Source of the DNA: a virus
IMG/VR virus record: IMGVR_UViG_3300042991_000439
Span: 1 to 40,831 of that record
Length of the DNA: 40,831 nt
Reading direction: 5' to 3' (one strand)
Translations under genes and position numbers: made by a program
Notes under the pieces: generated by a model
Database searches by the model: none
Seen by the model: the letters and a program-made list of their open reading frames with translations, nothing else
What the model was told of the DNA's origin: nothing
In this document: positions 1 to 40,831 of the stretch, piece by piece
Layout of the letters: every line of letters begins with the position of its first letter
How positions within the stretch are numbered: the stretch's first letter is position 1

Positions 1-127
1 TACTCATGTTACAATTTTGTAACTTGGTGGGTTCATAATAACTCAATGTTTTATCTGTAATCGTGTACCAACGTGTCCTGTCATACTTCTTAAGATTGAA
101 CCTACTTATCTTAATCAAACCCTTTTT
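1..127. repeat. Terminal direct repeat (left copy), circular-contig overlap
   Basis: This stretch is identical to 40705-40831. A perfect 127-base overlap at both ends is the usual mark of a circular molecule assembled with a k-mer of 127. It is therefore best read as an assembly overlap, not as a biological terminal repeat. The real circle is about 40,704 bp and the initiator ORF runs across the junction without a frame break. Confidence 0.93.
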
Positions 128-349
128 TTCGAGTTTTTTTATTGCGTATTCGATCTGTCTTTTGTTGAAATATTTCATGTAATTAGTAAATTTTTCAGCA
201 CTATTAAATGTCCAATATTTTCCGTGATGATAATGCTTTTTACTTCTCCCAGCTTCGTTTTGTTTAACCCAATAATAAATGTTATCCAATAAAATTGCTT
301 CTGTTACTCCGTAATCAATCGCAACGAATTCATTAAAATGGTGACTCAT
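1..349 (-). CDS. Phage replication initiator (DnaD-like replisome organiser), N-terminal part
   Basis: This is the first part of a 318-residue initiator that continues in frame at the other contig end (40097-40831). The start is ATG at 349, one base after the stop of the upstream ORF and behind a weak site. Residues 1-100 form a winged-helix DNA-binding domain: YGVTEAILLDNI, the segment KYWTF, and a recognition part RQIEYAIKKLEKKGLIK followed by a WYTIT wing. This is the N-terminal pattern of Gram-positive phage replisome organisers, which bind repeats inside their own gene and load the helicase. The class is clear from the domain order and from the iterons in the same gene. Confidence 0.88.
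   Translation of the reverse strand, partial: MSHHFNEFVAIDYGVTEAILLDNIYYWVKQNEAGRSKKHYHHGKYWTFNSAEKFTNYMKYFNKRQIEYAIKKLEKKGLIKISRFNLKKYDRTRWYTITDKTLSYYEPTKLQNCNMS
8..23. repeat. Palindromic iteron-like site GTTACAA-tt-TTGTAAC
   Basis: This is a perfect 7-base inverted repeat with a two-base centre, inside the initiator gene. The same bases appear at 40712-40727. Its right half matches the TTTGTAACTT core of the tandem iterons at 40596-40660, about 50 bases away on the circle. It is a probable initiator-binding site within the origin. Confidence 0.6.
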
Positions 350-350
350 A

Positions 351-554
351 TTATTTCACCTCTATTACTTTTTTAGATTTTTCGGTTAATTGATTATTTT
401 CGTCTATATATCCAAAATACCTTAAAATTTGCAATTGCTTTTGAGGAGCATCAGAACATTGATGTACTGCGATATCCAACAATATAATTTTTAAATCAGC
501 ATCGATAGTTTCGTCGTACCATAATTCATCGCTAACCCAAATCCCGTACTTCAT
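351..554 (-). CDS. Small winged-helix-like protein upstream of the initiator
   Basis: This is a 67-residue protein. The start ATG at 554 follows AGAGGT at a spacing of 8. The N-terminus (YGIWVSDELWYDETIDADLK) resembles the opening of many phage replication proteins, in which a short beta strand precedes a helix with an aromatic-Tyr-Asp pattern. The rest would be one helix-turn-helix. It is too short to carry the second half of an initiator. Its stop lies one base before the initiator ATG, so the two are translationally coupled. It may help or regulate the initiator; the function is not recognised with certainty. Confidence 0.6.
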   Translation of the reverse strand: MKYGIWVSDELWYDETIDADLKIILLDIAVHQCSDAPQKQLQILRYFGYIDENNQLTEKSKKVIEVK

Positions 555-603: not shown

Positions 604-632
604 ATTAAATTTAGTTAAAAAAAATTTGACAA
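604..632 (-). promoter_or_regulatory. Promoter for the initiator operon (TTGTCA-17-TTTAAT)
   Basis: On the minus strand TTGTCA (632-627) and TTTAAT (609-604) are 17 bases apart. Transcription would start near 597, giving a short leader to the ATG at 554. The -35 box sits on the same bases as the -35 box of an opposing plus-strand promoter (626-653), so one bound repressor could block both. The motif AACCTGTT at 631-638 recurs at 716-723. Confidence 0.6.
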
Positions 633-653
633 CCTGTTTCAATATGATATTAT
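626..653 (+). promoter_or_regulatory. Strong plus-strand promoter (TTGACA-16-TATTAT, extended -10)
   Basis: A perfect TTGACA at 626-631 and TATTAT at 648-653 are separated by 16 bases, with TG at 645-646 giving an extended -10. Transcription would start near 660. No plus-strand gene follows; only a short structured stretch ending in a terminator-like hairpin is present. The promoter points against the surrounding minus-strand genes. Confidence 0.7.
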
Positions 654-659
654 GTATGC

Positions 660-759
660 ATAAACGTGTGTTAAATCTAGTTCGAGATTTAACTGTGAAA
701 TAAAACTTATGTCGAAACCTGTTGTTGCCAAACTCAGTATAGCATAAGTTTTTATTTTG
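660..759 (+). ncRNA. Putative small antisense RNA over the initiator leader
   Basis: Starting at the strong promoter 626-653, the transcript would carry a perfect 9-bp hairpin (arms 670-678 and 685-693, loop AGTTCG). A second stem of 10 bp follows (702-711 with 743-752), closing a 31-base loop and ending in a T-rich tail (749-758), as an intrinsic terminator does. There is no Shine-Dalgarno sequence; the only ORFs are 12 and 15 codons. It lies opposite the leader made from the minus promoter at 736-764. The arrangement resembles plasmid countertranscript RNAs that limit Rep synthesis. This is inferred from promoter and structure only. Confidence 0.55.
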
Positions 760-764
760 TCCAA
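736..764 (-). promoter_or_regulatory. Second upstream promoter for the initiator operon (TTGGAC-17-TATACT)
   Basis: On the minus strand TTGGAC (764-759) is followed after 17 bases by TATACT (741-736) with an upstream TG, an extended -10. The start would be near 729. The RNA would read through the complement of the putative antisense RNA before reaching the 67-residue ORF at 554. Confidence 0.5.
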
Positions 765-772
765 AAATAATT

Positions 773-1015
773 TCACTGATTTCCTAAAGCCGCTATTTCT
801 CTAGCCTCATCAAAAATATTTTCATAACGTTGTCGTCTTTTCTTAGTTTGTCTGTTATTTATAATTGTTGCTATTACAATTAAAGAGCCGACACCAAGTA
901 TAACTCCAACCATTAATCCAATTGCTCCTCCTACAGAGCCTCCTCTAAACCAGTTTTTTAATTTTCCAGTAATTCCCCCACTAACTAACTCCAAATCTTT
1001 TTCTTTAATTTTCAT
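773..1015 (-). CDS. Double-glycine leader peptide with one membrane segment (bacteriocin-like)
   Basis: This is an 80-residue peptide. ATG at 1015 is preceded by AGGAG at a spacing of about 8. The first 14 residues, MKIKEKDLELVSGG, are a textbook double-glycine leader (LELVSGG), the signal cut by peptidase-containing ABC transporters. The predicted mature part of 66 residues holds a glycine-rich hydrophobic helix with several GxxxG spacings (about residues 25-52), then a KKRRQR cluster and a charged tail. That layout fits a class II bacteriocin-like or membrane-inserting peptide. No transporter or immunity gene is next to it. It stands alone between the lysis terminator and the initiator control region. 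Confidence 0.7.
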   Translation of the reverse strand: MKIKEKDLELVSGGITGKLKNWFRGGSVGGAIGLMVGVILGVGSLIVIATIINNRQTKKRRQRYENIFDEAREIAALGNQ

Positions 1016-1361: not shown

Positions 1362-2005
1362 ACGATACAAGCCTCCCCAAATCCTTTATTTTTTGCGTCT
1401 TGAAGAACAGATTCAGCTTTTTTTTTATCTATGTAATTTGCTAATTGAACCGTATAAGTTTTTTGAGTTTTTGCAAGAAAGGGTATTTTAACAATCTCAC
1501 AGATTGCTTGAGCTATAGCTGTAGCGTAATCAAATATGTATTTGTCGAATAAAGCATTATCATGTTGATTTGTTATAAATCCAACTTCTAATAGCATTGC
1601 TGGCATATTAGTGTATTTAAGGACATAGAAATTACTTTCTTTTACCCCTCTACCTGTCATCTCATTGGTTACTGACATTAATTTATCGTACATTATTTTT
1701 GCGTTTGCCTTTGTTGTTGGTCTTGCATTTAGACATGTCCATACCTCCAAACCATTTGCTTTTAGATCATTAAAAGCATTTCTGTGTATACTTATAAATA
1801 GATCGACGTTTTCAGCATTTGCTTGACTTGCAACCTCACTTAAATTTTCATCTGGATTAGTATTAACCACAACTGTAATCCCGCTGTTTTGCAATAAATC
1901 TGAGACAAGATTCGTCAACATTTGACAATCATCTTTCTCTAATCTAACTCCTCCAACTGCTCCACTATCTCTACCCCCATGTCCTGCATCTAAATATACT
2001 TTCAT
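1352..2005 (-). CDS. Endolysin, N-acetylmuramoyl-L-alanine amidase (Amidase_3) with SPOR-like tail
   Basis: This is a 217-residue zinc amidase that cuts the bond between muramic acid and the stem peptide. Expected Amidase_3 residues are present: H9 in DAGHGG, E23, H74 in ISIHRN and E140 in LLEVGF. The last 35 or so residues, starting TYTVQLANYIDKKKAE, look like a SPOR-type peptidoglycan-binding repeat. There is no signal peptide, so release depends on the adjacent holin. The ATG at 2005 overlaps the stop of the upstream fibre gene (TAATGA). A CAGCGGGA octamer lies at 1879-1886. Confidence 0.93.
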   Translation of the reverse strand: MKVYLDAGHGGRDSGAVGGVRLEKDDCQMLTNLVSDLLQNSGITVVVNTNPDENLSEVASQANAENVDLFISIHRNAFNDLKANGLEVWTCLNARPTTKANAKIMYDKLMSVTNEMTGRGVKESNFYVLKYTNMPAMLLEVGFITNQHDNALFDKYIFDYATAIAQAICEIVKIPFLAKTQKTYTVQLANYIDKKKAESVLQDAKNKGFGEACIVWY

Positions 2006-3960
2006 TAATACATTACTCCTATTTTAAAATAAGTTGATGCGTTAGTTATAGTTGTTGAACCACTGAACGCCTCTGCGGACATTTCTAAATTCTGCGTATT
2101 TCCTGACCCATGAACAATTCCTGTTGCAAATGCACTTGTTACATATCCTGTCGTAAAATTAACTAAATTATAATTATAAATAGGATATATGCTTACAGTT
2201 GCTCCTGCTACATAGTAATATGTTATAAAAATCAACTTTACCGAAGCATGAATTACAATTTTATTCGATGATAAATATACTTTTGTATTACTAGAGTCTG
2301 TTTGAGTATCAAATGTCATATTAGCTCGAGTTGTTGTTATTGTTTCAGTGTTACTAAATCCAAAAGTGTTTTCAGTATAATTTAACAATGTTGATGACAC
2401 TGTTAAAACAGCTACTTCATTTTGATAAATAGTTCCAGCCACATTCATATCTCCGGCAACACTCATATCTCCAGCACTATGAATATCTCCAGCTGCGTCA
2501 ATAGAACCGTCTGGATAGGTATTTGTTGGTACTTTGCCAACCCCTAACAACTTGTTTGCAGTATCTAAAACCAAAGTACCTGCACCAGCGGGAATAGTTG
2601 CCGTTTGTATCTTACTGGATAATCTATCTATAACCTCGATCTCAAACTGATAAGATTTTGAGATATCTAAATCGACAGCATTGTACGAAGTCTTGCTAAA
2701 TGAACCCGAGGCATTTGTAGTCAAAGTAATAGCTGTATAACTGCCATAGGCTCCGCCAACTTCCCTATATCTAAACCTAGCTGTCTGGATACTGTTAGTT
2801 GTAGACAAGCCAGTCCAGTTTGTATAAGTGCCAGAGAATGCAATGTAGATGTCTGCAGCCGAGCCATTCAACCTAGTTACTGAAACACTTGATAGTACTG
2901 GGCTTGAGTATGCAGTCCAATTTGTCAGTGTTTTCGGGATAGTCAATTGTTGTCCACGACTATCTATAACCTTTAAGTTATATGTGCTGTAGCCAATGGT
3001 CGTAAAATTCTTAACAAAATTCAGGGAATCGCTCTGGTTAGCGTACTGAGTGGTCTCGCCCGGCACTTCAAATACATAAGCATTATTTCCAAGAGTAGCT
3101 CCACTTTGGGCTGTAGCTTTGGCACTAACCGTGATCTGGAGGGTACTATATCCTTGTATGAACTTGGTGTTTGAGCCTGTAAGTGCAACAGTTGTGGAAT
3201 TACTATCCAGATGAGTTACTGCACTTGAAGACAGAATTGGTGCCACTCCAGTCAAATATCCAGTGGCTGTTGTTGTAGAAGTAGAGCCAATTTGAGTGCT
3301 TTTGGATGAGTCTGTGTACGTTTTTAGTTCAAATGTAAAAGTTGTACTATTAACGCCACTCATACGAGCATAAATACCAGTCGTTGCTGTTGTTAATTCC
3401 GCATTTGTAAATGTTACATTCCCAGTAACATAATTGTTTCTGGTGGCTACTGTATTCGCTCCAATTTTGATTGTCAGCACATCATAGTATCCGCTGTAAT
3501 ATTTTGTACACGGGACGCTGAAAGCTGAACCAACACCTGATGAACTGTCTATATTAAAATTATTAATATATCCTAATGTTGATCCTGCTGGATCAATTGA
3601 TAAAGAATATGAATAAGTAGCATCTCTACCACTATTGCTATATGCTCTAAAAGAAACATTTGTAGTTCCCGAAGTTTTATAAGGGACTTCATACCAAGGG
3701 GAATCATATACTATAGGTGATGCCCATTGATTGGGCGTAGTGTTTTTTATTTGGACTGTTTCACGCTTAATATATTCAAAGGATAAATCTTGATTGATAG
3801 TATATCCAAATGAAGATGCTCCTGTTACTGCTGAAACTTCTGTTCTAGTTTTGTAAAACATACTAGATCCAGATCGGTATTTATCGTAATAAAAATTAAG
3901 GCGTATTTCGGGCAAAGCGGATGTCCATCTTTCATCTGATAATATCAAAGTCCAAGCCAT
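2005..3960 (-). CDS. Tail fibre / DUF859-like minor structural protein
   Basis: This is a 651-residue, Ser/Thr/Gly-rich, beta-rich protein without membrane segments. The start ATG at 3960 has AAGGAGGTGAG just upstream. Several immunoglobulin-like stretches of about 90 residues can be seen between residues 100 and 460. These are followed by LLGVGKVPTNTYPDGSID and short repeats of the AGDMxVAGD kind (about residues 470-505), which is the fibre-shaft pattern known from DUF859 proteins of streptococcal siphophages. The C-terminal 130 residues would be the tip. It sits between the tail hub and lysis genes, the usual place for a receptor-binding or baseplate fibre. Confidence 0.72.
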   Translation of the reverse strand: MAWTLILSDERWTSALPEIRLNFYYDKYRSGSSMFYKTRTEVSAVTGASSFGYTINQDLSFEYIKRETVQIKNTTPNQWASPIVYDSPWYEVPYKTSGTTNVSFRAYSNSGRDATYSYSLSIDPAGSTLGYINNFNIDSSSGVGSAFSVPCTKYYSGYYDVLTIKIGANTVATRNNYVTGNVTFTNAELTTATTGIYARMSGVNSTTFTFELKTYTDSSKSTQIGSTSTTTATGYLTGVAPILSSSAVTHLDSNSTTVALTGSNTKFIQGYSTLQITVSAKATAQSGATLGNNAYVFEVPGETTQYANQSDSLNFVKNFTTIGYSTYNLKVIDSRGQQLTIPKTLTNWTAYSSPVLSSVSVTRLNGSAADIYIAFSGTYTNWTGLSTTNSIQTARFRYREVGGAYGSYTAITLTTNASGSFSKTSYNAVDLDISKSYQFEIEVIDRLSSKIQTATIPAGAGTLVLDTANKLLGVGKVPTNTYPDGSIDAAGDIHSAGDMSVAGDMNVAGTIYQNEVAVLTVSSTLLNYTENTFGFSNTETITTTRANMTFDTQTDSSNTKVYLSSNKIVIHASVKLIFITYYYVAGATVSIYPIYNYNLVNFTTGYVTSAFATGIVHGSGNTQNLEMSAEAFSGSTTITNASTYFKIGVMY

Positions 3961-3972
3961 AATCTCACCTCC

Positions 3973-5874
3973 TTATCCAATAAAGTATATATCGTCAGAT
4001 ATTGCTGTAATGGACATATTTTTCACAGTAATTTGACTAGTTACAGATCCACTAGTAGCTGTAAATGTATCGCTATATTGAGCGACAGTGGTACTACCGT
4101 TTTTAAACTCTAAAGAATTATCGTCAAATTGGGAATAAAAATCCGTGTTGGAAACATCATAAAGTCTCTGTCCATCAGCGTTTAGAACATAATTTATCCC
4201 CCTCGTTTCTTGAGCATTAGGAGTCCAAATCTTTGAATCTCCATATTGAAGAATTAAATCCGAGATATAAAAATCACTATTGTTACTGTAAATTTGAATA
4301 CTTGAAGTGTTAGCTGTTGACGTGTAGGTATAAGAAAATTCTGTTCGAGTGCTAACGCTTGTGGTCGTACTTAAAATATCCACATAAGTAGACGGAGTTA
4401 AATATAACCTAATATGACTCTCAGAACCACCGTTGTCGGTATGTTTGTACTTTCCAGATATTGTATAAGTTTTATTTAATTCGGTTTGGAAAGTTTGAGT
4501 AAATGTTCCGGCATTAAGCATGAGTTCAGACTTACATGCAGTATTTTCTTGAACTTCTGCACTTTGTGAAATTGTATAAACTGCTCCGCCACTAATAGTC
4601 CATTCTTCCCCATCCAAGTAAAACTGAGTGTTCTTTAAAAGATTAAATCCCCCCACCTGACTAATAGTGTTTGTCGTACTTGTTAAAGTTTGAGAGATTG
4701 TATTATCTAATATCTCTGTTGTTACATAATTGTTCGTTAAATCGCTAGATATATCTTGAGTAATAGTGGCTATTGAAGTTATAGTTTGTTCCTGCTTATC
4801 TACTCTAATTTCTGTCAATTTGTTGGCTTGCAACGCTGTAATTGGATTAGAATATTCTACCGTAGCCTTGATCACAGATGGTGCTTCTAAAGTAATTTCA
4901 GTGGCATTATAAGTAATACGTAAGACAGTAGTTTCCACACTTTCTCCATCTTTATTTATTACTGTAATCTTATCACCACATTCTAGATGAGGATATAAGC
5001 AATTGGTTAACACCATGCTACTATATCCAAACCCAATACAATTAGTATAAATAGCTCCAATTAAGGCTTGCCTCTTAGCTTGAGAATAGGCAAATGGATT
5101 ATCATTAATCTTGAGATAGTTTTCACCATAAAGTAATATCCCAGCTTCCCAACGTTGGACTACATTTTCGCCTTCGATATTTGATACGCCCAACGATACT
5201 ATTGTAATTGGCTGAGTGTCTCGTTTATCTTCAAATTCAACATATTCTCCCGCTGAAATAGTCACTCCTGAATCACTTGGGAACAATAAATATAGTTTGT
5301 CATCTCCCCTTATCTTGGCAAAAGAACCTGCCATTCCTGCTACTGCAGATACTACATTTCCAAAACTAGGAGCTCCATCAAATTGATTAGAATCAACGAT
5401 AAAGTCTGAGTTCGGGAATGAAGTAGTAGCAAGAGTAACTCCACAAGCTGTGCAAACTTCTTGTAATACGTCTAACATAGTAATCGTGCCTAGTGTATAA
5501 TCTAAGCTTGTTACGTAAGGATTAGCAAAAATTAACCCATAATCATAAGCCACTACCTTCACGCTTTCTTTAGTGTCTGATTCGTTAACTTCAGTAACTA
5601 CAAATGTCCCATAACAGATAGATTCCCAAGATCCGTCATATAATTTAAATTCTTTGTATGCTTTGAATTCTTTTCTTTTAAATTCATAAAAATCAGGATA
5701 TTCGAACTCAATACGCTTCATAATGAAGTTTTGAACTATATTCCCGTCTTTGTAGCAATCGTCGTAAAGATCAAACCATAAATATAATCTTTCCCCATCA
5801 ATGATAATATAATCTCGCTCGGTTACGACATCACTTTTTAAAGCTGTAGTTAATTCTGTACTTATATTGACCAC
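3973..5874 (-). CDS. Tail hub / Tal-like tail-associated protein with carbohydrate-binding-like domain
   Basis: This is a 633-residue protein. The start is GTG at 5874 behind GAGGTGG. The first 340 residues have the layout of a phage baseplate hub (gp27/Tal-like beta domains), including ECGDKITVIN near residue 300. A helical linker follows (about 345-400), then a region with a jelly-roll carbohydrate-binding pattern (NLLKNTQFYLDGEEWTISGG through YTISGKYKH). No peptidase or lysozyme motif is obvious. It lies after the tape measure and the small tail protein, as hub genes do, and would close the tail tube and contact the cell surface. Confidence 0.68.
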   Translation of the reverse strand: MVNISTELTTALKSDVVTERDYIIIDGERLYLWFDLYDDCYKDGNIVQNFIMKRIEFEYPDFYEFKRKEFKAYKEFKLYDGSWESICYGTFVVTEVNESDTKESVKVVAYDYGLIFANPYVTSLDYTLGTITMLDVLQEVCTACGVTLATTSFPNSDFIVDSNQFDGAPSFGNVVSAVAGMAGSFAKIRGDDKLYLLFPSDSGVTISAGEYVEFEDKRDTQPITIVSLGVSNIEGENVVQRWEAGILLYGENYLKINDNPFAYSQAKRQALIGAIYTNCIGFGYSSMVLTNCLYPHLECGDKITVINKDGESVETTVLRITYNATEITLEAPSVIKATVEYSNPITALQANKLTEIRVDKQEQTITSIATITQDISSDLTNNYVTTEILDNTISQTLTSTTNTISQVGGFNLLKNTQFYLDGEEWTISGGAVYTISQSAEVQENTACKSELMLNAGTFTQTFQTELNKTYTISGKYKHTDNGGSESHIRLYLTPSTYVDILSTTTSVSTRTEFSYTYTSTANTSSIQIYSNNSDFYISDLILQYGDSKIWTPNAQETRGINYVLNADGQRLYDVSNTDFYSQFDDNSLEFKNGSTTVAQYSDTFTATSGSVTSQITVKNMSITAISDDIYFIG

Positions 5875-6251: not shown

Positions 6252-8304
6252 ATTGGAGCGACCTCCTGTCATTGATTCTGTTAACAGACTTAGTTATAGT
6301 TTCACCGTCTAAATTTAAATAAGAGGTATAAGTACCGTCAACTGTTATAGGTTGAATAGACATTATATTATTATATGAATTCCCAGCTTGCACACTCCAA
6401 TTTAATTTAGCATTTTGAAGATCAATTGCATTGCTCATATCACTATAAATGTTGCCTATTTCTTTTCCAAACCCTATTCCTAATCCTTGTGCTAAATATT
6501 TGCCGTATCCAGCTGTGATTCTTGAAGGAGAATTTTCCCCAAGAGCTTTCATCATTCCCGACAATAATCCACTGCAAAAAGTAGAAACTTTGTTATACAA
6601 CCATCCGGCTGCCCCACTTATACCATTCCAGAGTCCTTTGACAATATCCGACCCCACATTGTAGAGTTTTCCTGGCAATTGCGCGAACCAAGAAACTACA
6701 TTGTTAATAATCCCAGATATCCCACTGCTCATTGTAGAACCCAGATTAGAGATCCAAGCACTAACCTTGCTTACAGTTTCTACAAGCCAAGCCCAAATCT
6801 TACTTGGAAGTTGTTGGAACCAAGTCACCACGGCATTTATTACTTGTGCCATGCCATAATTCATCTTATTTTGTAGATCGGATATCCACGCAACTACTTT
6901 GTTAAAAGTTTCAACTAACCAAGTCCAGATACGACTAGGCATTTCCGCAAACCATTTCACAATCCCATCTACTACAGCTTTAAATTTAGATGGTAATTCT
7001 TGAAACCAAGTCACAGTGGCATTCCAGGTGTCTACAATCCATTTGGCAGAATCTTTAAACATCTGAACAATCTTGTTCCAGATAGCCGTTACAGCGTTTC
7101 TAAAACCTTCATTTGTGTTCCAAAGGTAAATTATAGCCGCTACTAACACTGCAATTATAGCAATTACAATCCCTATTGAATTAGCTAAAAATACAGCATT
7201 TAATGCTGCTTGAGCTTTAGTCCACAAACCTGTTACAAAAGTAACTATTGTAATTTTACCCGTCAATAACGCCACTAAAGTTTCCCAAACTGTTAATGTT
7301 CCGTTAAGTACACCTTGTGCTATTGTTGCCCCATTTGCTGTTGCTGTGTACAAAGCCAATGAAACTTGTGCCAGTTGAAAACTTTGTATAACACTTTGAA
7401 TTATTGCTCCTGTTTTGAAACCTATCATTGCTGCTGTAGCGACAGTAATTGCCAATCCTATTGCCTTTATAGTTTCTAAAAATGCATTCCAATTTCCAGT
7501 TTGAATATCTGCTGTAAGTTGACTCATAAGATTCGTCAGTGCTGGTAAAATTTGATTAGTTATTAAATTATAAAATGGTTGTAAAATTGCACCCGAAAAC
7601 TTCCCGAACGCATCCATAAATGTTGACCAACGTCCACCAAAAGTCTTAGCATATTCATCCATGGCGCCATAAAAACGTCCGCCCTCTGAAGTAGCGTCTT
7701 TAAAGGCTTGGGTGACCATATCTGTGGTTATAGCACCTTTTTCCATTTGATCTTTTAATTCACTCATGGATTGTCCAGTTCGTTTGGATATATATTCCAA
7801 AGGATTGAATCCTACATTAATCATTTGGTAAAAATCTTGAGTCATCATCTTTCCTTGAGCTTGTACCTGCCCAAAAACCAAAGCGAGACGTTGAAAATTT
7901 TCGCTATTTCCCATCGAAATATCGCCTAAATTTTTTAAAATAGGCATTACATCGTTTGCATTTACTCCAAAAGCCAGTAAAGTTTTGGCAGCATTACTTA
8001 CACCTGGTAAATCAAATGGTGTTGAATTAGCAAATCTCTCAAGTTCGGCTAACATATTTTTAGCTTTATCAGCACTTCCCAATAATACTTTAAATGCTGC
8101 ACTTGCATTTTCCATTTGCTTGTTGTAATTAAATCCGGCTACACCAATTGCAGTAGCCGCCGCACCAATAGCAACTCCGATAGTAGTAAAAGCATCTTTT
8201 ATTAAATCCGAACCTTTAGATGCACTTGCTTTCATTTGATTTAAACCTGACTCAAAACCACTTTTATCGAGTTCCGTACTAATTCTTACTTTTCCGTCTG
8301 CCAA
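6241..8304 (-). CDS. Tail tape measure protein
   Basis: This is a 687-residue protein that sets tail length and is ejected ahead of DNA. TTG at 8304 is the apparent start, behind GGGGTGAT. The N-terminal 270 residues match the conserved tape-measure domain (MQASAxFKVLLGSADKA-like, then STPFDLPGVSNAAKTLLAFG and GQVQAQGKMMTQDF). Hydrophobic segments follow (about 275-300 and 375-395). A set of Trp-rich repeats of about 35-40 residues covers residues 420-560 (VTWFQELPSK, VKWFAEMPSR, VTWFQQLPSK, VSWFAQLPGK). At about 1.5 angstrom per residue it suggests a tail near 100 nm, a siphovirus. Confidence 0.93.
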   Translation of the reverse strand: MADGKVRISTELDKSGFESGLNQMKASASKGSDLIKDAFTTIGVAIGAAATAIGVAGFNYNKQMENASAAFKVLLGSADKAKNMLAELERFANSTPFDLPGVSNAAKTLLAFGVNANDVMPILKNLGDISMGNSENFQRLALVFGQVQAQGKMMTQDFYQMINVGFNPLEYISKRTGQSMSELKDQMEKGAITTDMVTQAFKDATSEGGRFYGAMDEYAKTFGGRWSTFMDAFGKFSGAILQPFYNLITNQILPALTNLMSQLTADIQTGNWNAFLETIKAIGLAITVATAAMIGFKTGAIIQSVIQSFQLAQVSLALYTATANGATIAQGVLNGTLTVWETLVALLTGKITIVTFVTGLWTKAQAALNAVFLANSIGIVIAIIAVLVAAIIYLWNTNEGFRNAVTAIWNKIVQMFKDSAKWIVDTWNATVTWFQELPSKFKAVVDGIVKWFAEMPSRIWTWLVETFNKVVAWISDLQNKMNYGMAQVINAVVTWFQQLPSKIWAWLVETVSKVSAWISNLGSTMSSGISGIINNVVSWFAQLPGKLYNVGSDIVKGLWNGISGAAGWLYNKVSTFCSGLLSGMMKALGENSPSRITAGYGKYLAQGLGIGFGKEIGNIYSDMSNAIDLQNAKLNWSVQAGNSYNNIMSIQPITVDGTYTSYLNLDGETITKSVNRINDRRSLQYGY

Positions 8305-21652: not shown

Positions 21653-22992
21653 CAAACAATCACCTTCCCTGTAACCGCTTCACTTATTACGCTCTTGCGG
21701 TATTCTTTTAATAACTCAATTAACTTTTTCTGATCTTCAATAATAGAGTCAATTTGTGAAGTTTTGAGGTCTAGATAATTGGCTATAGATTGTTGGATAT
21801 TAATTTTAGGAATTGCGCATTTCTCATTGAAGTACTCTGAAATATTTAGATTTTGTATTCCGGTGGTCTGGTTGATACTTTTGTTATTTAATCCAATAGA
21901 ATAAAGTACCGAGAACAAGTAATTAATAAAAACATTATCATTATTTTGATTTACTTTAATTTTCTCAATAAAATTAGAACACAATGATTTAATATTTTTA
22001 TTAAAAATAACTACTCTTCCTACCGGAAAGTTTTTACCACCGCCCGATTTCTCGATGATTAAATCATTTTTATTCAGAATTAATTTAATTATATTTACAC
22101 TATCATCATAATTTCTAATAGTGTACTCATTATCCTTTATGCTCAGACTATTATAATCAAAATCAGCAACTCTGATACAAATGCAATCATTATTATTGCC
22201 CGCTGGCGCATTTCCCCAAGAACCTGTACAATGGTATTCTATACATAGTTTTATTTTTTTAACTTCCCAATCTTCAGGTATCTGACCAATCCAAGGAATC
22301 CCGCTGTCTTTCATTTTTACAGTCTTATCTAAACCTTTTGTCACAGCTTCGCTTATTAGGCTTTTCCTGTACTCTGACAGCTTTTTGTTTTGATTGGTTA
22401 AATTAGAAATAATAGAGTCAATTTGTGAAGTTTTAAGATCTAGATAGTTGGCAATGGCTTGTTGGGTTTGAAACGAAGGTACTGGTAATGAAATAATATT
22501 TAATTTGGACATTGATATTCTCATACGGATTTCAAGAATACCATTTCCTAAACCTTTTAAACTTTTTTGCAGAACTTCTGATTGGAAAATATAGTTATAG
22601 AACTCGATATTATATTTGTCTATATTTCTTGAGTATAACATGTAATAAACAGGACTAACGCAACCAAAGTAATTTGAAAGACCAACAGAACCGATAACAA
22701 CATTCATACTGTTTACGACAATATCGTTAGGATATGCCAATTTATAACATGTTAAATCCTCTTTTGCTTTATTTCCTATATCTCCTTTTTCGCTATACAA
22801 AATTACTCCACGAGTGTTTGTTAAAGATAATATTTCTTCTGTCTTAATTGGATTATTATTTTCTTTTCTCTCCGCTAAAATAGCCTTCAATGGTTTTACT
22901 TCCCAATCTTCAGGTATCTGACCAATCCAAGGAATCCCGCTGTCTTTCGTGTTGTGTTCTTCGATGTCTGTTCTATTACTAAAACAGCTCAT
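21652..22992 (-). CDS. hsdS: Type I restriction-modification specificity subunit HsdS
   Basis: This is a 446-residue protein. ATG 22992 fits GAGGTAGGTG; an in-frame GTG lies nine bases earlier. It has two target-recognition domains, each introduced by KDSGIPWIGQIPEDWEV (about residues 17 and 230) and each followed by a conserved helix pair (QAIANYLDLKTSQIDSII, then EYRKSLISEAVT). The full two-half architecture is intact, so it should recognise a bipartite site. It overlaps hsdM by 14 bases and is next to it, but no hsdR is present in the genome. The two halves share a perfect 51-base DNA repeat. Confidence 0.94.
   Translation of the reverse strand: MSCFSNRTDIEEHNTKDSGIPWIGQIPEDWEVKPLKAILAERKENNNPIKTEEILSLTNTRGVILYSEKGDIGNKAKEDLTCYKLAYPNDIVVNSMNVVIGSVGLSNYFGCVSPVYYMLYSRNIDKYNIEFYNYIFQSEVLQKSLKGLGNGILEIRMRISMSKLNIISLPVPSFQTQQAIANYLDLKTSQIDSIISNLTNQNKKLSEYRKSLISEAVTKGLDKTVKMKDSGIPWIGQIPEDWEVKKIKLCIEYHCTGSWGNAPAGNNNDCICIRVADFDYNSLSIKDNEYTIRNYDDSVNIIKLILNKNDLIIEKSGGGKNFPVGRVVIFNKNIKSLCSNFIEKIKVNQNNDNVFINYLFSVLYSIGLNNKSINQTTGIQNLNISEYFNEKCAIPKINIQQSIANYLDLKTSQIDSIIEDQKKLIELLKEYRKSVISEAVTGKVIV
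22262..22312. repeat. Perfect 51-bp direct repeat within hsdS (copy 1)
   Basis: This copy is identical to 22898-22948 and encodes the same KDSGIPWIGQIPEDWEV segment at the start of the second recognition domain. Recombination between the copies would delete about 636 bp, one whole recognition half, in frame. Exact identity suggests recent exchange or strong functional matching. Confidence 0.9.
22898..22948. repeat. Perfect 51-bp direct repeat within hsdS (copy 2)
   Basis: This is the partner of 22262-22312, at the start of the first recognition domain. It also contains one of the CAGCGGGA octamers (22935-22942), as does the other copy (22299-22306). Confidence 0.9.
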
Positions 22993-24274
22993 AAAAAACA
23001 CCTACCTCATCAACAGAGAAAAACTCTTGACTTATTTTATTCTGAAGCTCTTTTATTTCAGCTAATATGTCTTCGCTATTTCTGAGAGGAGTAAATTTGT
23101 AGAAATATCTTGTAAAAGGAATTTCATAGCCTACTTTTGTCTTCTTCTCATCAATCTGAGCATCTGGTACATGTGGTAAAACTTCTCGAGTGAAATACTC
23201 TTTTATGTCCTCTTTCAGCGGGACTCTTTCTGTATCTTTACCATTAGTTTTACTATTGATAGTAATCTTGTGATACCCAAAATCTTTATTATCAAATTCA
23301 ATATAATCTTCATGAGGTTCAATCATTGAATAAAGTTTGACAATATCTTCTCTGTTTTTGTCGCTTATTACATTTCGTTTGTTTCCCAGAGATTTTCTCA
23401 TCTTCTCAAAGTAGGACACGCCATTTACTAGTCTAATCTTGCCTTTTCTTAGATCTGGTTTTCGATTTGAAAGTATCCAAATATATGTAGAGATTCCCGT
23501 GTTATAAAACAATTGATCTGGTAGGGCAATAATTGATTCAAGTAGATCGTTTTCTATTATCCATCTTCGGATTTCGCTTTCTCCGCTACCTGCATCTCCT
23601 GTAAATAAGGGCGAGGCATTTAAGACTATTCCTAATTTCCCATCGTCTGAAAGTTTTGAAATACAGTGCAATAAAAAAAGCATTGAACCGTCTGAAGTTC
23701 GAGGATAGCCTACTTGAAATCTGATATCTTCTTTAACTTTTTTTTCATATTTTTTCCAATCCAAACCAAATGGTGGATTTGATAAAATTAAATCAAATTT
23801 ATTATCTGTAAATTTATCCTCAGTTAATGTATTACCGCATTTTATATTATCGCCTAAATACATAAGAGCGATATTAGTAGTATCTGGATTTATTTCTTGT
23901 CCAAATAATTTAGCATTTTTATATTTATGTTTAGCTGTTGATAAAAACCCACCAGTACCACAGGTAGGATCATATATAGATTTTGGGTTGTCAATGTTTA
24001 CTAAATCAATAGTCAATTTACGAATATCCTCGGGAGTATAAAATTCGGCAGTTGTTGTCTCTGCAAAATAAGTTAAAAAACATTCGAATAAATCACCTAA
24101 ATTGGATAAATCTATATCATACATAATAATTAAATCATTTAAAGTTCTTTTTATCACTTCATTTTTAATAATATCCTCATCACCGCATAAAAATGGCAAT
24201 ATTATTTTATGATATTCATGGGGGGAATAATCAGAGCGTAATAAATCCGAACATGCTTTTACAAAACTTTTCAT
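22979..24274 (-). CDS. hsdM: Type I DNA methyltransferase subunit HsdM (shortened N-terminus)
   Basis: This is a 431-residue N6-adenine methylase. ATG 24274 follows AAAGGAC. The AdoMet-binding motif DPTCGTGGF is at 102-110 and the catalytic NPPF at 166-169. The family usually has about 150 residues before motif I; here the N-terminal helical domain is cut to under 100 (SDLLRSDYSPHEYHKIILPF, then a direct join). With HsdS it would form the methylating complex. Without HsdR it can only modify DNA, which would protect the phage from a host type I enzyme. It has its own putative promoter and operator. Confidence 0.93.
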   Translation of the reverse strand: MKSFVKACSDLLRSDYSPHEYHKIILPFLCGDEDIIKNEVIKRTLNDLIIMYDIDLSNLGDLFECFLTYFAETTTAEFYTPEDIRKLTIDLVNIDNPKSIYDPTCGTGGFLSTAKHKYKNAKLFGQEINPDTTNIALMYLGDNIKCGNTLTEDKFTDNKFDLILSNPPFGLDWKKYEKKVKEDIRFQVGYPRTSDGSMLFLLHCISKLSDDGKLGIVLNASPLFTGDAGSGESEIRRWIIENDLLESIIALPDQLFYNTGISTYIWILSNRKPDLRKGKIRLVNGVSYFEKMRKSLGNKRNVISDKNREDIVKLYSMIEPHEDYIEFDNKDFGYHKITINSKTNGKDTERVPLKEDIKEYFTREVLPHVPDAQIDEKKTKVGYEIPFTRYFYKFTPLRNSEDILAEIKELQNKISQEFFSVDEVGVFYELF

Positions 24275-24331
24275 TTTTTTGTCCTTTTAGGATGGTATTT
24301 ATTTTCAATACATACTAAATATAGAAAATAT

Positions 24332-24361
24332 ATTCTATTAGTACACTAAACAGAGTGTAAA
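24332..24361 (-). promoter_or_regulatory. Promoter and operator-like repeat before hsdM
   Basis: On the minus strand TTTACA (24361-24356) and TAGAAT (24337-24332) are 18 bases apart. The inverted repeat TACACT/AGTGTA (24342-24347 and 24354-24359) overlaps the -35 and spacer. This gives hsdMS a start separate from the long upstream operon, possibly repressed by a bound dimer. Confidence 0.45.
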
Positions 24362-24386
24362 TACTATATTACTAGGGTAACGTCTA

Positions 24387-24710
24387 TTAATACTCTTTTC
24401 CATGTCTGTATTCTCGTTGTGAGTTATAATTAAGTTTCTCTAAAATTCTGTCTTCTAAATCAATACCATAATTACCACACATATCAAAAATTCTAATTAC
24501 CGTATCTGCTAATTCACTTGGAACACCACAAGGTTTATTAAATTCGTAGTATGTAAAGTTTGGTTCAAAACCTTGTCTGTGTTCTTCCAAAGTTTCTGTA
24601 ATTTCCGAATGTATTAAAGCAATCATCTCACCAAAATTACGCTCTTTATCCCAAAATCCTTTTTGTTTAGCTAAATTATGAGACATTCTAATCAAATCAT
24701 TTAGATGCAT
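24387..24710 (-). CDS. MazG-like nucleotide pyrophosphohydrolase
   Basis: This is a 107-residue protein starting MHLNDLIRMSHNLAKQKGFW. The MazG metal-binding pattern is visible: EITETLEEHR (about 37-46), then GVPSELADTVIRIFDMCGNYGIDLED (about 62-87) and a final YNSQREYRHGK. Family members hydrolyse (d)NTPs or alarmones to monophosphates. In phages they can adjust nucleotide pools or the host stress response. Its start overlaps the end of the upstream membrane gene by 14 bases. It belongs to the nucleotide-metabolism part of the operon together with thymidine kinase. Confidence 0.88.
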   Translation of the reverse strand: MHLNDLIRMSHNLAKQKGFWDKERNFGEMIALIHSEITETLEEHRQGFEPNFTYYEFNKPCGVPSELADTVIRIFDMCGNYGIDLEDRILEKLNYNSQREYRHGKEY

Positions 24711-24942
24711 TTAGATTTTCCTCGATCTTCTTCCAATTTATGAATCCAAACACACACAAACACGTTTGAACAAAGAAAAGGGCAAATCGAGCAAAATTAT
24801 GATACATTATTAAATCCATTAATCCGTAACTTGTATTTGTAAATATCCAAATTGCAAATCCCCAGCGTTTTTGTTTCGCATTTCCCCAAGTGCCAAGTAA
24901 ACACAAAGCTGTTAAAAACCAATTAAATAATATTAATGACAT
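24697..24942 (-). CDS. Small PnuC-like membrane protein
   Basis: This is an 81-residue protein with three hydrophobic stretches (about 2-18, 29-45 and 52-70). The segment KRWGFAIWIFTNTSYGLMD resembles the core of PnuC-type nicotinamide riboside transporters, but the protein is only about a third of a full PnuC. Oligomers or a role in cofactor uptake are possible. The ATG at 24942 overlaps the thymidine kinase stop. The identification is by pattern only. Confidence 0.6.
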   Translation of the reverse strand: MSLILFNWFLTALCLLGTWGNAKQKRWGFAIWIFTNTSYGLMDLIMYHNFARFALFFVQTCLCVFGFINWKKIEENLNASK

Positions 24943-25487
24943 AATTTCCCTTCCTTAAAATGTTTTCGACAAAGAGCTATGTAAGATTCATTACCACCTA
25001 TTTGAATTTGACTTCCATCTTTGATAACCTGACCATCTTTAATTCGAGCATTGTAAATACCCTTTCTTCCACACCAACAAGTTGTTTTGAGTTCTTCCAA
25101 TTTATCTGCACAAGCTAACAACCAATAACTACCCTCAAAAAATTTACCTTGAAAGTCTGTCTTCAAACCATAACAAAAGACTCTAATTGAATATTTGTCA
25201 ACGATATAAGTGAGGAAATTAATATCCTCTTTTGTTAAGAACTGCACTTCATCAACAATTATCACATCGTAAAATTGCCAATCTGTATAACGTATGTTTT
25301 CAAAATTCTCACATGTTGATTCAAGTCCACAACGTGATTTTAAAACACCAGAATCATCTCTTGTATCTAAAACAGGTTTAGCTAAAAGTACCTTTAAGCC
25401 ACGTTCTTCAAAGTTATATTTAAGCATTAACGCTTGTGCTGTTTTACCTGAGCCCATACACCCATGACGAAAATATAATTTACTCAT
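24933..25487 (-). CDS. tdk: Thymidine kinase
   Basis: This is a 184-residue type II thymidine kinase. ATG 25487 follows AAAAGGAGG. The P-loop GCMGSGKT is at 9-16, the DE box VDEVQF at about 78-83, and the GLKTDFQG loop at about 122-129. Zinc-type cysteines are present (TTCWCGRKG and the CRKH near the end). It phosphorylates thymidine to dTMP and would feed phage DNA synthesis by salvage. It overlaps both neighbouring genes by a few bases, part of one translationally coupled operon. Confidence 0.96.
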   Translation of the reverse strand: MSKLYFRHGCMGSGKTAQALMLKYNFEERGLKVLLAKPVLDTRDDSGVLKSRCGLESTCENFENIRYTDWQFYDVIIVDEVQFLTKEDINFLTYIVDKYSIRVFCYGLKTDFQGKFFEGSYWLLACADKLEELKTTCWCGRKGIYNARIKDGQVIKDGSQIQIGGNESYIALCRKHFKEGKLCH

Positions 25488-26763
25488 TCGTAACCTCCTT
25501 TTTTCTTACTTTCCAAACTTGGAATCCAACATCAATATCTTTGTGTTTTGCTTCTTGTAATACTTTTTTACCTGCTCTTCTAATCCTTTCTTTACCTATT
25601 TCACATATGTTTTTATACCCTGCTTTGTACGCTTCACTCTTTTCATCACACAATTCTGGTAATTGAACCATTATCCATTTTCGATTACCGCCATCCTCTG
25701 CATTTAGTTGCATTACTGCATGAGCGGTTGTGCCGGAACCACTGAAAAAATCTAAGATTATATCGTTTTCACGCGTGTAAAGTTGTAGCATTCTTTTTAT
25801 TAATTCAGTTGATTTAGGGTAATCAAAATAAGTTTTGCCGTCAAAAACTTCTTTTAATGCTCGCATAGCGTCTTGTGAATGTCCAATTTCTGTATATTTC
25901 CACAATGTCATAGGTGTCATTGTTTGTTTTACTTCAGATAAAAATTTTTTAACTCTTGGGATACCATTCCCATCTCCAAATGAAATTCTATTGTCAGCAA
26001 CCATCTCTTCAAATCTTTGTTTTGTATATAACCAGCAGCGTGCATTGGGAGGTAAAACTTTTCTGCCACTTGGCAAAGTTATTTCATAAACTTTTTCTTT
26101 AACAACAGGACCAACAGTACAATCTGTAGATTTCCAAACTCCCCTTAAATCATCATCTGGATTTGAGTATCTATCATTTGCTTCATTACTTCTTGGCAAC
26201 CCATTACATACTAAATTTCCAACAGATTTTGCATAACATAAAATGTAATCATGACTTTCGGAGAAGTGCTTTTTAAGATTTATTGGGGAATATGCTCGCT
26301 CCCAAATTATCTGCGCCACAAAATTCTCTTCACCGAAAATCTCATCACATATTTTTCTTAGATTATGTACTTCATTATCATCAATAGAAATAAATATAAC
26401 CCCATCATCGCGAAGCAAATCCCTGGCCAGATATAACCTGGGATACATCATGTTGAGCCAATCAGAGTGCTTACAACCTGTAATATCTCCAAAATCATCC
26501 TTATACTGTCTACTTTTACCAGTGTTGTAAGGAGGATCTATGTAAATGCATTTCACTTTATTTAAATGAGTCGTTTGAAGATATTTAAGAGCATCTAGAT
26601 TATCACATTCAAAGAATAAGTTTTCAGTTGTATCAAAATTAACACTTTCTTCAGGACAAGGAATAAATTCATACTGTAAAGGTTCCTCTAAACAATCTAA
26701 ACATGTTTCTTTACCTTCCCAATTTAAAGTGCATAAATTCTGTCTTTTTTTACGTTTCGCCAT
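25480..26763 (-). CDS. Orphan Mod-type DNA methyltransferase
   Basis: This is a 427-residue beta-class methylase. The catalytic DPPYNTG is at 76-82 and the AdoMet motif DFFSGSGTT at about 343-351, the order seen in type III Mod and related N6-adenine enzymes. The N-terminus begins with a basic stretch (MAKRKKRQ) and two Cys pairs, CLDCLEEP among them. Recognition probably lies in the middle part (about 150-300). No Res partner is present, so it is an orphan methylase, probably for protection against restriction. It overlaps the tdk start and the small-terminase-like gene. Confidence 0.92.
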   Translation of the reverse strand: MAKRKKRQNLCTLNWEGKETCLDCLEEPLQYEFIPCPEESVNFDTTENLFFECDNLDALKYLQTTHLNKVKCIYIDPPYNTGKSRQYKDDFGDITGCKHSDWLNMMYPRLYLARDLLRDDGVIFISIDDNEVHNLRKICDEIFGEENFVAQIIWERAYSPINLKKHFSESHDYILCYAKSVGNLVCNGLPRSNEANDRYSNPDDDLRGVWKSTDCTVGPVVKEKVYEITLPSGRKVLPPNARCWLYTKQRFEEMVADNRISFGDGNGIPRVKKFLSEVKQTMTPMTLWKYTEIGHSQDAMRALKEVFDGKTYFDYPKSTELIKRMLQLYTRENDIILDFFSGSGTTAHAVMQLNAEDGGNRKWIMVQLPELCDEKSEAYKAGYKNICEIGKERIRRAGKKVLQEAKHKDIDVGFQVWKVRKKEVTNE

Positions 26764-27103
26764 TTATGTCCCCCAAATCATTTACTATAACAACCCTATC
26801 ATTATTGATGTTCTCTACAATGTCCCGCTGTCCAAGTAACTGTTTACCAAGCCAAATAGCCATACTCGTGTTCTTTTCTGCTAACTTATATTGAATTCTT
26901 CTCAGTGACATTTTTCCGCCATCAGAATACTTTTTATAGGCATTCGAAAAAGTCTCGTTGTATTCATCTTTTATCATGCGATCTAAAGTTTCAGTATCAA
27001 CATCCAAAACGCTACAGATTTCATGTTTTGGACACTGTATGTAACATAACTTTTCGAATAACTCTCGGTTAAATTCTTTCTTAGGTCGACCCATTACCGC
27101 CAT
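26750..27103 (-). CDS. terS: Probable terminase small subunit
   Basis: This protein has 117 residues from ATG 27103, eight bases after GGAG. It begins MAVMGRPKKEF, then a helix-turn-helix-like part (CPKHEICSVLDVDTETLDRMI). The stretch KKYSDGGKMSLRRIQYKLAEKNTSMAIWLGKQLLGQRD is highly characteristic of small DNA-binding proteins found with terminases in clostridial and streptococcal phages. It would recognise the packaging site. It is unusual that about 5 kb of cargo lies between it and the large subunit. A generic DNA-binding role cannot be excluded. Confidence 0.72.
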   Translation of the reverse strand: MAVMGRPKKEFNRELFEKLCYIQCPKHEICSVLDVDTETLDRMIKDEYNETFSNAYKKYSDGGKMSLRRIQYKLAEKNTSMAIWLGKQLLGQRDIVENINNDRVVIVNDLGDINGET

Positions 27104-27108
27104 ATTAC

Positions 27109-27882
27109 TCACTCCATAACTATTCTTTTTTTAGCAATATCAACATAGTTTTCATTAATATCGATCCCAATAAAACGCCTATTCAATTGTTTAGCCATTT
27201 TTCCAGTTGTGCCACTGCCCATCATTGGATCTAAAATTAAATCTCCTTCATTTGACCAACTGATTATGTGATCATGGGCTAATTGTTCGGGGAATGTAGC
27301 AGGGTGATTACCAGTAGACCCAATTTTGCTTCCAGTAACATATTCCCAAACATTACCTTTGTATTTTTTTTCTTTAGTTACAGTGATCTCATGCCTATTT
27401 CTAGTAGCAGATTCTTTTACTCTGCCAGTTTGTATTCTATTGTTACATACACCAATGGTTTTACATTTTTCCAAGATTGGATTAAATGTTTTTATTTTGC
27501 ACTTGCAAAAAACAAACATGTATTCGAAATGCTGTTCGTATCTCTTATGAGTTAATGGTATTGGATTAATTTTCTTATAAATCATTGTGTCGTGTAAATT
27601 AAAACCAATATCTTTAAAATATAGAGCTTGCTTAAAACTAGAACCACTCTCACTACCTTTGATTGTTTGATCTCCTACAACCCATACCAACACGCCTCCA
27701 TTTTTGGTCACACGATATAATTGATCAGCTATTTGCTTGAATACCTCAAATGACCAATTGCATTTGCCTTCGTATGTTCTTAAAGAATCATAAGGAGGGC
27801 TAGTCAGTGTCAAATCAACAATCTCATCATCAAAATCTTCTAAAACCTCCAAACAATCTCCACAAATTAAATTATCAACCAA
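27109..27882 (-). CDS. DNA methyltransferase, SPPY-type (probably N4-cytosine)
   Basis: This is a 257-residue beta-class enzyme. The start is TTG 27882 with GGAGTGAT seven bases upstream, five bases after the previous stop. The catalytic TSPPYDS is at about 27-33 and the AdoMet motif [11 protein letters not shown] at about 218-228. The SPPY box favours N4-cytosine methylation, though some N6-adenine enzymes have it too. Basic insert residues around 125-190 would read the target. It has no restriction partner and is the second of three methylase systems here. Confidence 0.9.
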
Positions 27883-39415: not shown

Positions 39416-39435
39416 TTATATAAGAGGTGATAATA

Positions 39436-39939
39436 ATGAAATTCGGTTATGCTGACAACAAAGATGAAAACTTAGATGTAGACAAGATGTACAACGATGA
39501 TGTCAAAGTGACTAACAGATCTCGTACTGAGTTGAATAAAATGATTGAGCAATTACGAGAAAATGATGTCGTATATGTCAAACATTTAGGTCAACTTTAT
39601 TGGAGTGCACGAGATGTCGTACATTTGTTGTCGATTTTAATGTCAAAGAATGTAAATTTAATCTCTATAGATGACGATTTTAATTTATTTAAGTCGCAAG
39701 ATGTCATTAGAGCTTTCAAAAAAATTGAATCATATAAACTCACTGCAATTAAAAAAAATACGTGGAAAAATGCAGGAGCTAAATGCAAACCTATCGATGA
39801 AAACCTCTGGACCTCATACTATAACTTATGGAAAAATAAGTCAATAACAAAAACACAATGGGGGAAAATGATGAATATTCCACCAGATCGTTTTTCACGT
39901 ATTTTCAAAATGCGACATATTTTGAATTCTAAGGGGTAG
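39436..39939 (+). CDS. Catalytically dead serine-recombinase-fold protein with helix-turn-helix
   Basis: This protein has 167 residues from ATG 39436, eight bases after AAGAGG. The first 85 residues follow the resolvase plan: MKFGYADNKDENLD against the usual GYARVSTxDQNLD, then RTELNKMIEQLRENDVVYVKHLGQLYWSARDVVHLL and NVNLISIDDDFN. The catalytic Ser and Arg of ARVST are Asp and Lys here, and the Arg residues of the LDRLGRS box are lost (LGQLYWS). The C-terminus (SITKTQWGKMMNIPPDRFSRIFKMR) keeps a resolvase-like helix-turn-helix. It most likely binds DNA as a dimer without cutting, as a regulator or organiser. Confidence 0.72.
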   Translation: MKFGYADNKDENLDVDKMYNDDVKVTNRSRTELNKMIEQLRENDVVYVKHLGQLYWSARDVVHLLSILMSKNVNLISIDDDFNLFKSQDVIRAFKKIESYKLTAIKKNTWKNAGAKCKPIDENLWTSYYNLWKNKSITKTQWGKMMNIPPDRFSRIFKMRHILNSKG

Positions 39940-39959: not shown

Positions 39960-40100
39960 TTATACTACCTCGTCCTTAGACGGGTCATTTTGAACTTGTA
40001 AATGCTCGTAATTTTGATTCTCACACTTACATTCTTCCTCAACGTAAGAATCTAACAATAAATTCTCATTGAAATCATCATCTTTCATTTTTAAAATCAT
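39960..40100 (-). CDS. Small acidic protein after the initiator
   Basis: This protein has 46 residues. ATG 40100 overlaps the initiator stop (ATGA), a classic coupled start. It reads MILKMKDDDFNENLLLDSY, then EEECKCENQNYEH and an acidic end. It has two cysteines two residues apart and no known fold. It converges on the plus-strand regulator gene, whose stop lies 20 bases away. The function is unknown. Confidence 0.5.
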   Translation of the reverse strand: MILKMKDDDFNENLLLDSYVEEECKCENQNYEHLQVQNDPSKDEVV

Positions 40101-40831
40101 TTTTCTATCCCCATTCTAATCAATTCTACATAGGTAAATTTTGCTTTCAATTCTTCTTTGGTTAACTTTAAAACTTCGTTAGCAGAACATTTTTGTTCAC
40201 GAACTGCAGCCGCTTGTAACATCATTAAATCTTTATCAATATTAATCCGCCCGCAAGAATTCTCAGTAGGAGCAACGTAAACCTTTGAGTCTGGACGCTT
40301 TGGTTCAACTTTTGCCACAGTTTTGCTACCAGATTGAAAATTGTTTTTAGCCCACATTGATACTTTTAAACGATAATTTGATTTTGTTATTAATTTCCCT
40401 TGACTATCTATCCATTCATTGTTACAATAATGATCGTAGAAATCTTTAGCATTTATGCTAAGTTCTTTCTCAGCGATAAAGCTTTCAATTTCGTCAAGAG
40501 TTGGGGGCTTTTTTCGTTCTTCGTTTTTTAAAAAAAATTTTTCAGCCATATATATATCTGAGTTTATGGATGAGTTTACGGATGGTATAGGTGAACAAAT
40601 TTTGTAACATCCATGTGACAAATTTGTAACTTCCATGTGACAAATTTGTAACTTGTCTGATGAAGCATCTTTTGATTCTTTTTTTAATTTATAATCCGCT
40701 TCATTACTCATGTTACAATTTTGTAACTTGGTGGGTTCATAATAACTCAATGTTTTATCTGTAATCGTGTACCAACGTGTCCTGTCATACTTCTTAAGAT
40801 TGAACCTACTTATCTTAATCAAACCCTTTTT
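40097..40831 (-). CDS. Phage replication initiator, C-terminal part (continues at 349)
   Basis: This is the remainder of the initiator that begins at 349. After the winged helix comes a Cys/His/Asn-rich linker encoded by the iterons (KLQICHMEVTNLSHGCYKIC). The C-terminal domain follows, PPTLDEIESFIAEKELSINAKDFYDHYCNNEWIDSQG, then YRLKVSMWAKN, the typical helicase-loader half of DnaD-like phage initiators. A short basic linker and a helical end close it. The stop TGA is at 40099-40097. The whole protein has 318 residues. Confidence 0.88.
   Translation of the reverse strand, partial: KKGLIKISRFNLKKYDRTRWYTITDKTLSYYEPTKLQNCNMSNEADYKLKKESKDASSDKLQICHMEVTNLSHGCYKICSPIPSVNSSINSDIYMAEKFFLKNEERKKPPTLDEIESFIAEKELSINAKDFYDHYCNNEWIDSQGKLITKSNYRLKVSMWAKNNFQSGSKTVAKVEPKRPDSKVYVAPTENSCGRINIDKDLMMLQAAAVREQKCSANEVLKLTKEELKAKFTYVELIRMGIEK
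40508..40560. other. AT-rich stretch beside the iterons (possible unwinding element)
   Basis: A run of T and A including AAAAAAAATTTTT, and then TATATATATC, lies just beside the tandem iterons within the initiator gene. It would be easy to melt and may be the duplex-opening part of an origin located in the gene. Confidence 0.4.
40596..40660. repeat. Tandem iterons inside the initiator gene
   Basis: Three direct repeats of 22-23 bases occur at 40596-40618, 40619-40640 and 40641-40660. The first two have the form CAAATTTGTAAC, two bases, CCATGTGA; the third keeps only the first half. A related palindromic copy follows at 40712-40727. The spacing is about two helical turns. In Gram-positive phages with this initiator type, such repeats in the coding sequence are the initiator's binding sites and the origin. 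Confidence 0.75.
40705..40831. repeat. Terminal direct repeat (right copy), circular-contig overlap
   Basis: This is identical to bases 1-127. Joining the two copies restores one open initiator gene, one palindromic iteron and a genome of about 40,704 bp. Confidence 0.93.

Follow-up and report, generated by a model that had tools for sequence, protein, structure and literature searches.

A putative antisense RNA opposite the leader of a phage initiator operon

Ahead of the replication initiator operon of an AT-rich phage, two predicted promoters point towards each other within a 161-bp site (positions 604 to 764), and the one directed against the operon would give rise to a short, structured RNA complementary to the operon's leader. 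We propose, with a probability of about one in two, that these opposed promoters and the antisense RNA restrain the initiator operon, both by interference and through a leader duplex. In such a scheme the minus promoter, starting near position 729, would produce the initiator-operon message, while the stronger plus promoter, starting near 660, would fire against it and yield a non-coding RNA of about 98 nucleotides with two hairpins, complementary to the first ~70 nucleotides of the message. RNA polymerases from the plus promoter could thereby run over the opposing promoter, and the duplex could mark the leader for cleavage, so that antisense RNA would accumulate and operon output would fall as phage copies increase; a leader hairpin beside a run of eight uridines (U8) probably adds a second control point. 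We infer that both RNAs are made, that the net effect is negative and that the module has a role in replication. The anatomy itself appears largely real and unusual, if ordinary in kind, and its expression is predicted.

Genomic setting and the initiator operon

The window analysed here is the whole 40,831-nucleotide stretch of an IMG/VR virus record, which has a GC content of 33% and carries a 127-bp repeat at its ends, so that the map closes into a circle of 40,704 bp. Nearly all genes lie on the minus strand, and PHROG profile matches cover both structure and lysis (portal, terminase, head, scaffold, tape measure, tail and endolysin) and replication and recombination (polymerase, primase-helicase, RecE-like and Sak4-like proteins). 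Among the proteins scanned there was no integrase, repressor or partition protein, and a tRNA/tmRNA search gave none. We take the virus to be a tailed, AT-rich, circular-mapping phage with a Bacillota-type host. Among its other genes, several encode DNA methyltransferase-like proteins within 22979-27882 (27109-27882, 25480-26763 and 22979-24274), and a resolvase-like protein (39427-39939, plus strand; Pfam PF00239) has its N-terminal catalytic motif apparently replaced, with YGYADN for YxRVS; its gene is opposite in strand to the other genes in relatives too (L004 5031-5540 and L006 2222-2728, both minus).

The site is flanked by an 80-aa ORF 3' of the lysis genes and by a 67-aa ORF 5' of the initiator. 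Small proteins encoded at 773-1015 (minus) and, in the relative L006, at 1573-2244 (minus) bear a double-glycine-type, bacteriocin-like leader at the N-terminus (KEKDLELVSGG, LSEKQLDLVQGG), and in both of these related phages their genes adjoin those for lysis. The gene directly downstream of the leader is the 67-aa ORF, whose codon usage resembles that of the phage's genes and which has no family; the initiator comes after it and matches PHROG 11233 (DnaD/O-like) through its N-terminal domain (E 4e-28). Since iteron-like repeats lie inside the initiator gene, the replication origin is probably there, and we dropped the antisense site as a candidate origin in favour of these iterons.

Table 1. 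Features of the antisense site and the initiator operon (window coordinates)
Feature	Position	Strand	Details	Basis
Plus promoter of putative antisense RNA	626..653	+	TTGACA-16-TATTAT, TG-extended -10	11/12 consensus
Putative antisense RNA, ~98 nt	660..757	+	10-nt 5' tail, stem-loops I and II, T-rich tract 750-758	fold prediction
Likely initiator-operon promoter	736..763	-	TGGACA-16-TATACT, TG; predicted start ~729	10/12 consensus
Weak second minus promoter	604..632	-	TTGTCA-17-TTTAAT, without A at -11	sequence; absent from promoter scan
Leader hairpin, possible attenuator or terminator	617..729	-	GGCAAC (729-724)/GUUGUC (633-628) plus GUUUCGA/UUGAAAC; encloses stem I	fold
67-aa ORF, first gene of initiator operon	351..554	-		SD AGAGG at 568-564
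Initiator, 318 aa, PHROG 11233/DnaD-like	5' part 1..349, rest 40097-40704	-	across circular junction	profile match
Iteron-like repeats, probable origin	40598..40730		CATGTKACAAATTTGTAACTTS; within initiator gene	sequence
45-aa ORF, coding status ambiguous	639..776	-	GTG start overlapping stop of 80-aa ORF	codon score

Opposed promoters and the predicted plus-strand RNA

The promoter matches, the stems, their geometry and the leader hairpin can be read directly from the nucleotide sequence. A preliminary description of the site had posited a near-consensus plus-strand promoter that serves no gene, and both points hold: at least 11 of 12 consensus bases together with TG occur at just two sites in the whole circle, where Markov genomes lead one to expect 0.05, and all plus-strand ORFs before position 1150 are of 25 aa or fewer. 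The other such site (minus strand, 39018-38989) precedes a series of replication genes. Of the two minus-strand promoters assigned to the initiator operon in that description, the upstream one is retained as a good match, albeit one of a quality expected about twice per genome, whereas the one at 604-632 is weak, and a transcript from it would have no overlap with the small RNA. Furthermore, a local promoter scan returned 6 promoter-like sites against 10.1 in shuffled sequences, so weak promoter sites in this region carry no weight.

With the two promoters face to face, their predicted starts are only ~70 bp apart. Such proximity would also suit transcriptional interference alone, with a plus RNA devoid of function, a mode of action proposed for lambda pO in the control of replication; interference is reported at lambda pR/pO, and oop RNA levels affect replication little (PMC3985674). 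We consider this unlikely here, as the plus RNA has more structure than expected by chance and carries a terminator-like element at its end, near its promoter.

Concerning that RNA, the preliminary description had proposed about 100 bases with two stems and a terminator-like end. The stems are well supported: stem I (670-693) has 9 bp and a loop of 6, stem II (698-757) a loop of ~31, and the plus RNA of 98-101 nt folds significantly, at -20.7 kcal/mol for ~660 to ~757 and with a z score of -3.3 for 660-760; it ranks in the best 2.4% of equal-GC windows from the same genome. The terminator is present but not rare when taken alone: the structure at 706-748 with its T tract is one of four such plus-strand sites, where chance gives one to five, and it combines a good T tract with a stem of only two G-C pairs. 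It is notable only because it lies ~90 nt past the plus promoter. If transcription read through beyond ~757, the next plus-strand terminator-like site would be that at 1073-1092, and the RNA would then be antisense to the 80-aa ORF too. A search against Rfam gave no match near the gathering score.

The minus transcript had been expected to be fully complementary to the small RNA, but the -10 element at 741-736 sets its start near 729, and the overlap is therefore confined to 660-729, or ~70 of ~98 nt, over which the two predicted RNAs would match perfectly as complements. The loop of stem II (716-730) lies opposite the 5' end of the minus leader, which we count in favour of antisense restraint. 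As in plasmid countertranscript systems, then, a convergent promoter is predicted to yield a short structured RNA able to pair with the leader of a replication operon.

Counted against antisense restraint, besides the commonness of such terminators and the two G-C pairs of the stem, is a 45-aa ORF, overlooked previously, that covers most of the site. Were the region partly coding, a 45-aa protein would be GTGA-coupled to the 80-aa ORF, and the promoters and stems would be coincidental. The overlap of stop and start, with an SD-like AGGA ahead, would fit such coupling, yet the codon score of 0.008 corresponds to the 15th percentile of true genes and is reached by 24% of shadow frames, the ORF has no homologue, and both the rarity of the promoter and the leader fold would be left unexplained. 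We therefore regard this coding alternative as highly improbable.

The leader hairpin and the sign of control

The preliminary description had also missed a hairpin in the minus leader, which is followed by AAA and thus separated by 3 nt from U8 (624-617). From position 729 to U8, the leader folds at -20.3 kcal/mol, as compared to -10.0 ± 2.5 in 300 shuffled sequences, none of which was as low (0/300), and its first 18 nt, which provide the 5' arm, contribute 9.7 kcal/mol, a gain matched in 0.3% of shuffles (P 0.003). When the downstream leader is included, the outer hairpin pairs with a probability of ~0.3 and an inner one with 0.5, so the leader hairpin would be one of several states. Leader pairing also accounts for the octamer AACCTGTT, which had been put forward as a motif shared by the control elements (631-638 and 716-723). 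As a shared motif it is weak: any such 8-mer would occur twice in 161 bp with P ~0.07, and further copies are found at 7227, 12857 and 25371. The two local copies sit at both arms of the leader stem, and no operator is needed to explain them; we accordingly set aside an operator role and take the octamer as part of the leader stem. A type I toxin-antitoxin arrangement was likewise rejected, as no toxin-like ORF with an SD sequence was seen in the leader.

The stems could alternatively serve mainly as a barrier that terminates transcription and separates the initiator operon from the lysis-side 80-aa ORF, with the promoters lying within it and no regulatory antisense RNA of importance. Stem II is indeed almost symmetric, and its ends are U-rich on either strand; read-through from the 80-aa ORF could lengthen the leader stem to 9 pairs that run right up to U8 (UUUGGCAAC/GUUGUCAAA). 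Of the read-through constructs folded, however, the longest (from 775) does not have the extended stem as its minimum-energy form. As a barrier would, in addition, leave unexplained why the genome's best promoter is aimed away from any gene, we view it as very unlikely.

The small RNA would pair ~100-170 nt 5' of the first start codon. When 660-729 is masked in the fold models, the hairpin ahead of U8 is lost, and the 67-aa ORF has a more accessible SD and start (0.68, up from 0.47); pairing that opens both the U8 hairpin and the ribosome-binding site would argue for activation and against restraint. The leader hairpin and U8 might thus be a default attenuator of the initiator message, with the plus RNA acting as an activator that pairs with the 5' arm and lets transcription through. 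The significance of the hairpin, its distance from U8, the fact that the plus RNA covers the 5' and not the 3' arm, and the outcome of masking all agree with such a role. Nevertheless, a stem spanning ~100 nt would form slowly by the standards of a terminator, its outer part pairs at the low probability given above, convergent transcription would work against activation, and the sign would be opposite to that of all plasmid countertranscript systems compared. An activating plus RNA is, in our estimate, distinctly unlikely, and very little likelihood attaches to a switch in which hairpin and U8 stop transcription by default while an RNA dosed by copy number captures the 5' arm, permits read-through and causes replication to rise with copies.

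Known systems and relatives

Restraint by antisense RNA is well represented among plasmids: in pT181, pIP501 and pSK41, the antisense RNA induces a terminator or an SD-sequestering stem (PMC5703833). Like pT181 RNAI, pIP501 RNAIII and pSK41 RNAI, the predicted RNA is short, structured and directed against the leader of a replication operon, and pSK41 RNAI, with ~83 nt, two stem-loops and a 5' tail, likewise has its target ~100 nt ahead of the region where translation starts (PMC5703833). Unlike these plasmid RNAs, whose initiators are unrelated, the fold prediction yields no induced terminator or SD-sequestering stem, and pairing would instead remove a hairpin and free the SD. The effect of pairing being the reverse, the plasmid-type countertranscript control of Rep proposed earlier is kept as a layout, a convergent short RNA against a leader, and given up as a mechanism. 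We consider interference between convergent promoters combined with duplex formation likelier than the plasmid mechanism as described.

A parallel in layout among phages is lambda, where pO/oop faces pR just before gene O and convergence lowers pR output (PMC3985674). In lambda (PMC3985674; PMC12197685; PMC6022878), oop is a short antisense RNA whose promoter lies just 5' of the initiator and converges on an early promoter, and the origin lies inside the initiator gene; the predicted convergent promoter 5' of the initiator, short transcript and weak terminator of our phage follow the same plan. Whereas oop is antisense to the upstream regulator gene cII, there is no cII-like gene here and the RNA covers the operon's 5' leader; unlike in lambda, moreover, the start of the opposed promoter is only ~70 bp away. 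The P1 lytic replicon, which has an unrelated initiator (RepL), is reportedly controlled by an antisense RNA on a phage replication operon as well, to judge from a cited title (Heinrich et al. 1995, in PMC9948254). Finally, Bacillus subtilis ArrA similarly overlaps an initiator 5' UTR, that of dnaA, and lowers dnaA expression (PMC12112137), although ArrA is chromosomal and its production is inhibited by DnaA. Given P1, as far as that title goes, and lambda pO/oop, the earlier suggestion that such control had not been described goes too far if it is taken to cover phages at large; among open-licence papers, no report was found for phages whose initiator is of the present type (PHROG 11233, DnaD/O-like). 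Antisense control of phage replication is thus not new in kind, and the present site is a plausible further case. If the RNA is made, antisense control of initiators, as in plasmids, P1, lambda and dnaA, would extend to DnaD/O-like phages of AT-rich hosts, in a compact module of two opposed promoters and a leader hairpin, and the predicted conflict in sign with the plasmid systems poses a clear experimental question.

We looked for relatives in IMG/VR, GTDB genomes and phage and plasmid records, using the initiator, the polymerase, the endolysin, the nuclease and DNA patterns as queries, and found none with both the initiator and the region. The nearest initiators share no more than 48% identity over the N-terminal ~100 residues. 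Among phages, the nearest relatives found are L006 (endolysin 79%, helicase 77%) and L004/L007 (endolysin 62%). They retain the genes that flank the initiator cassette on either side, but other genes stand where the cassette itself would be; these records are fragments, and no initiator match was found elsewhere in them. This pattern is consistent with the initiator and leader coming and going as a block, as a self-contained replication cassette would.

Antisense promoters as a general trait of the initiator family were not convincing, being present at 6 of 86 loci as compared to 7 of 197 control genes. Individual initiator homologues on other viral contigs have strong antisense promoters (11-12 of 12) followed by hairpins (L061 1054-1154, L075 2452-2552 and L103 3900-4001), the promoters lying at -20 to -25 relative to the start codon; those of L103 and L061 may serve divergent operons instead. 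In L004, which lacks the initiator, an early-type promoter (1830-1880; TTGACA-17-TATACT) holds a palindrome (ATAACAACAATTGTTGTTAT) in its spacer, and an IS607-like pair of a serine recombinase and a TnpB-like protein (2690-4913) occupies the position of the cassette.
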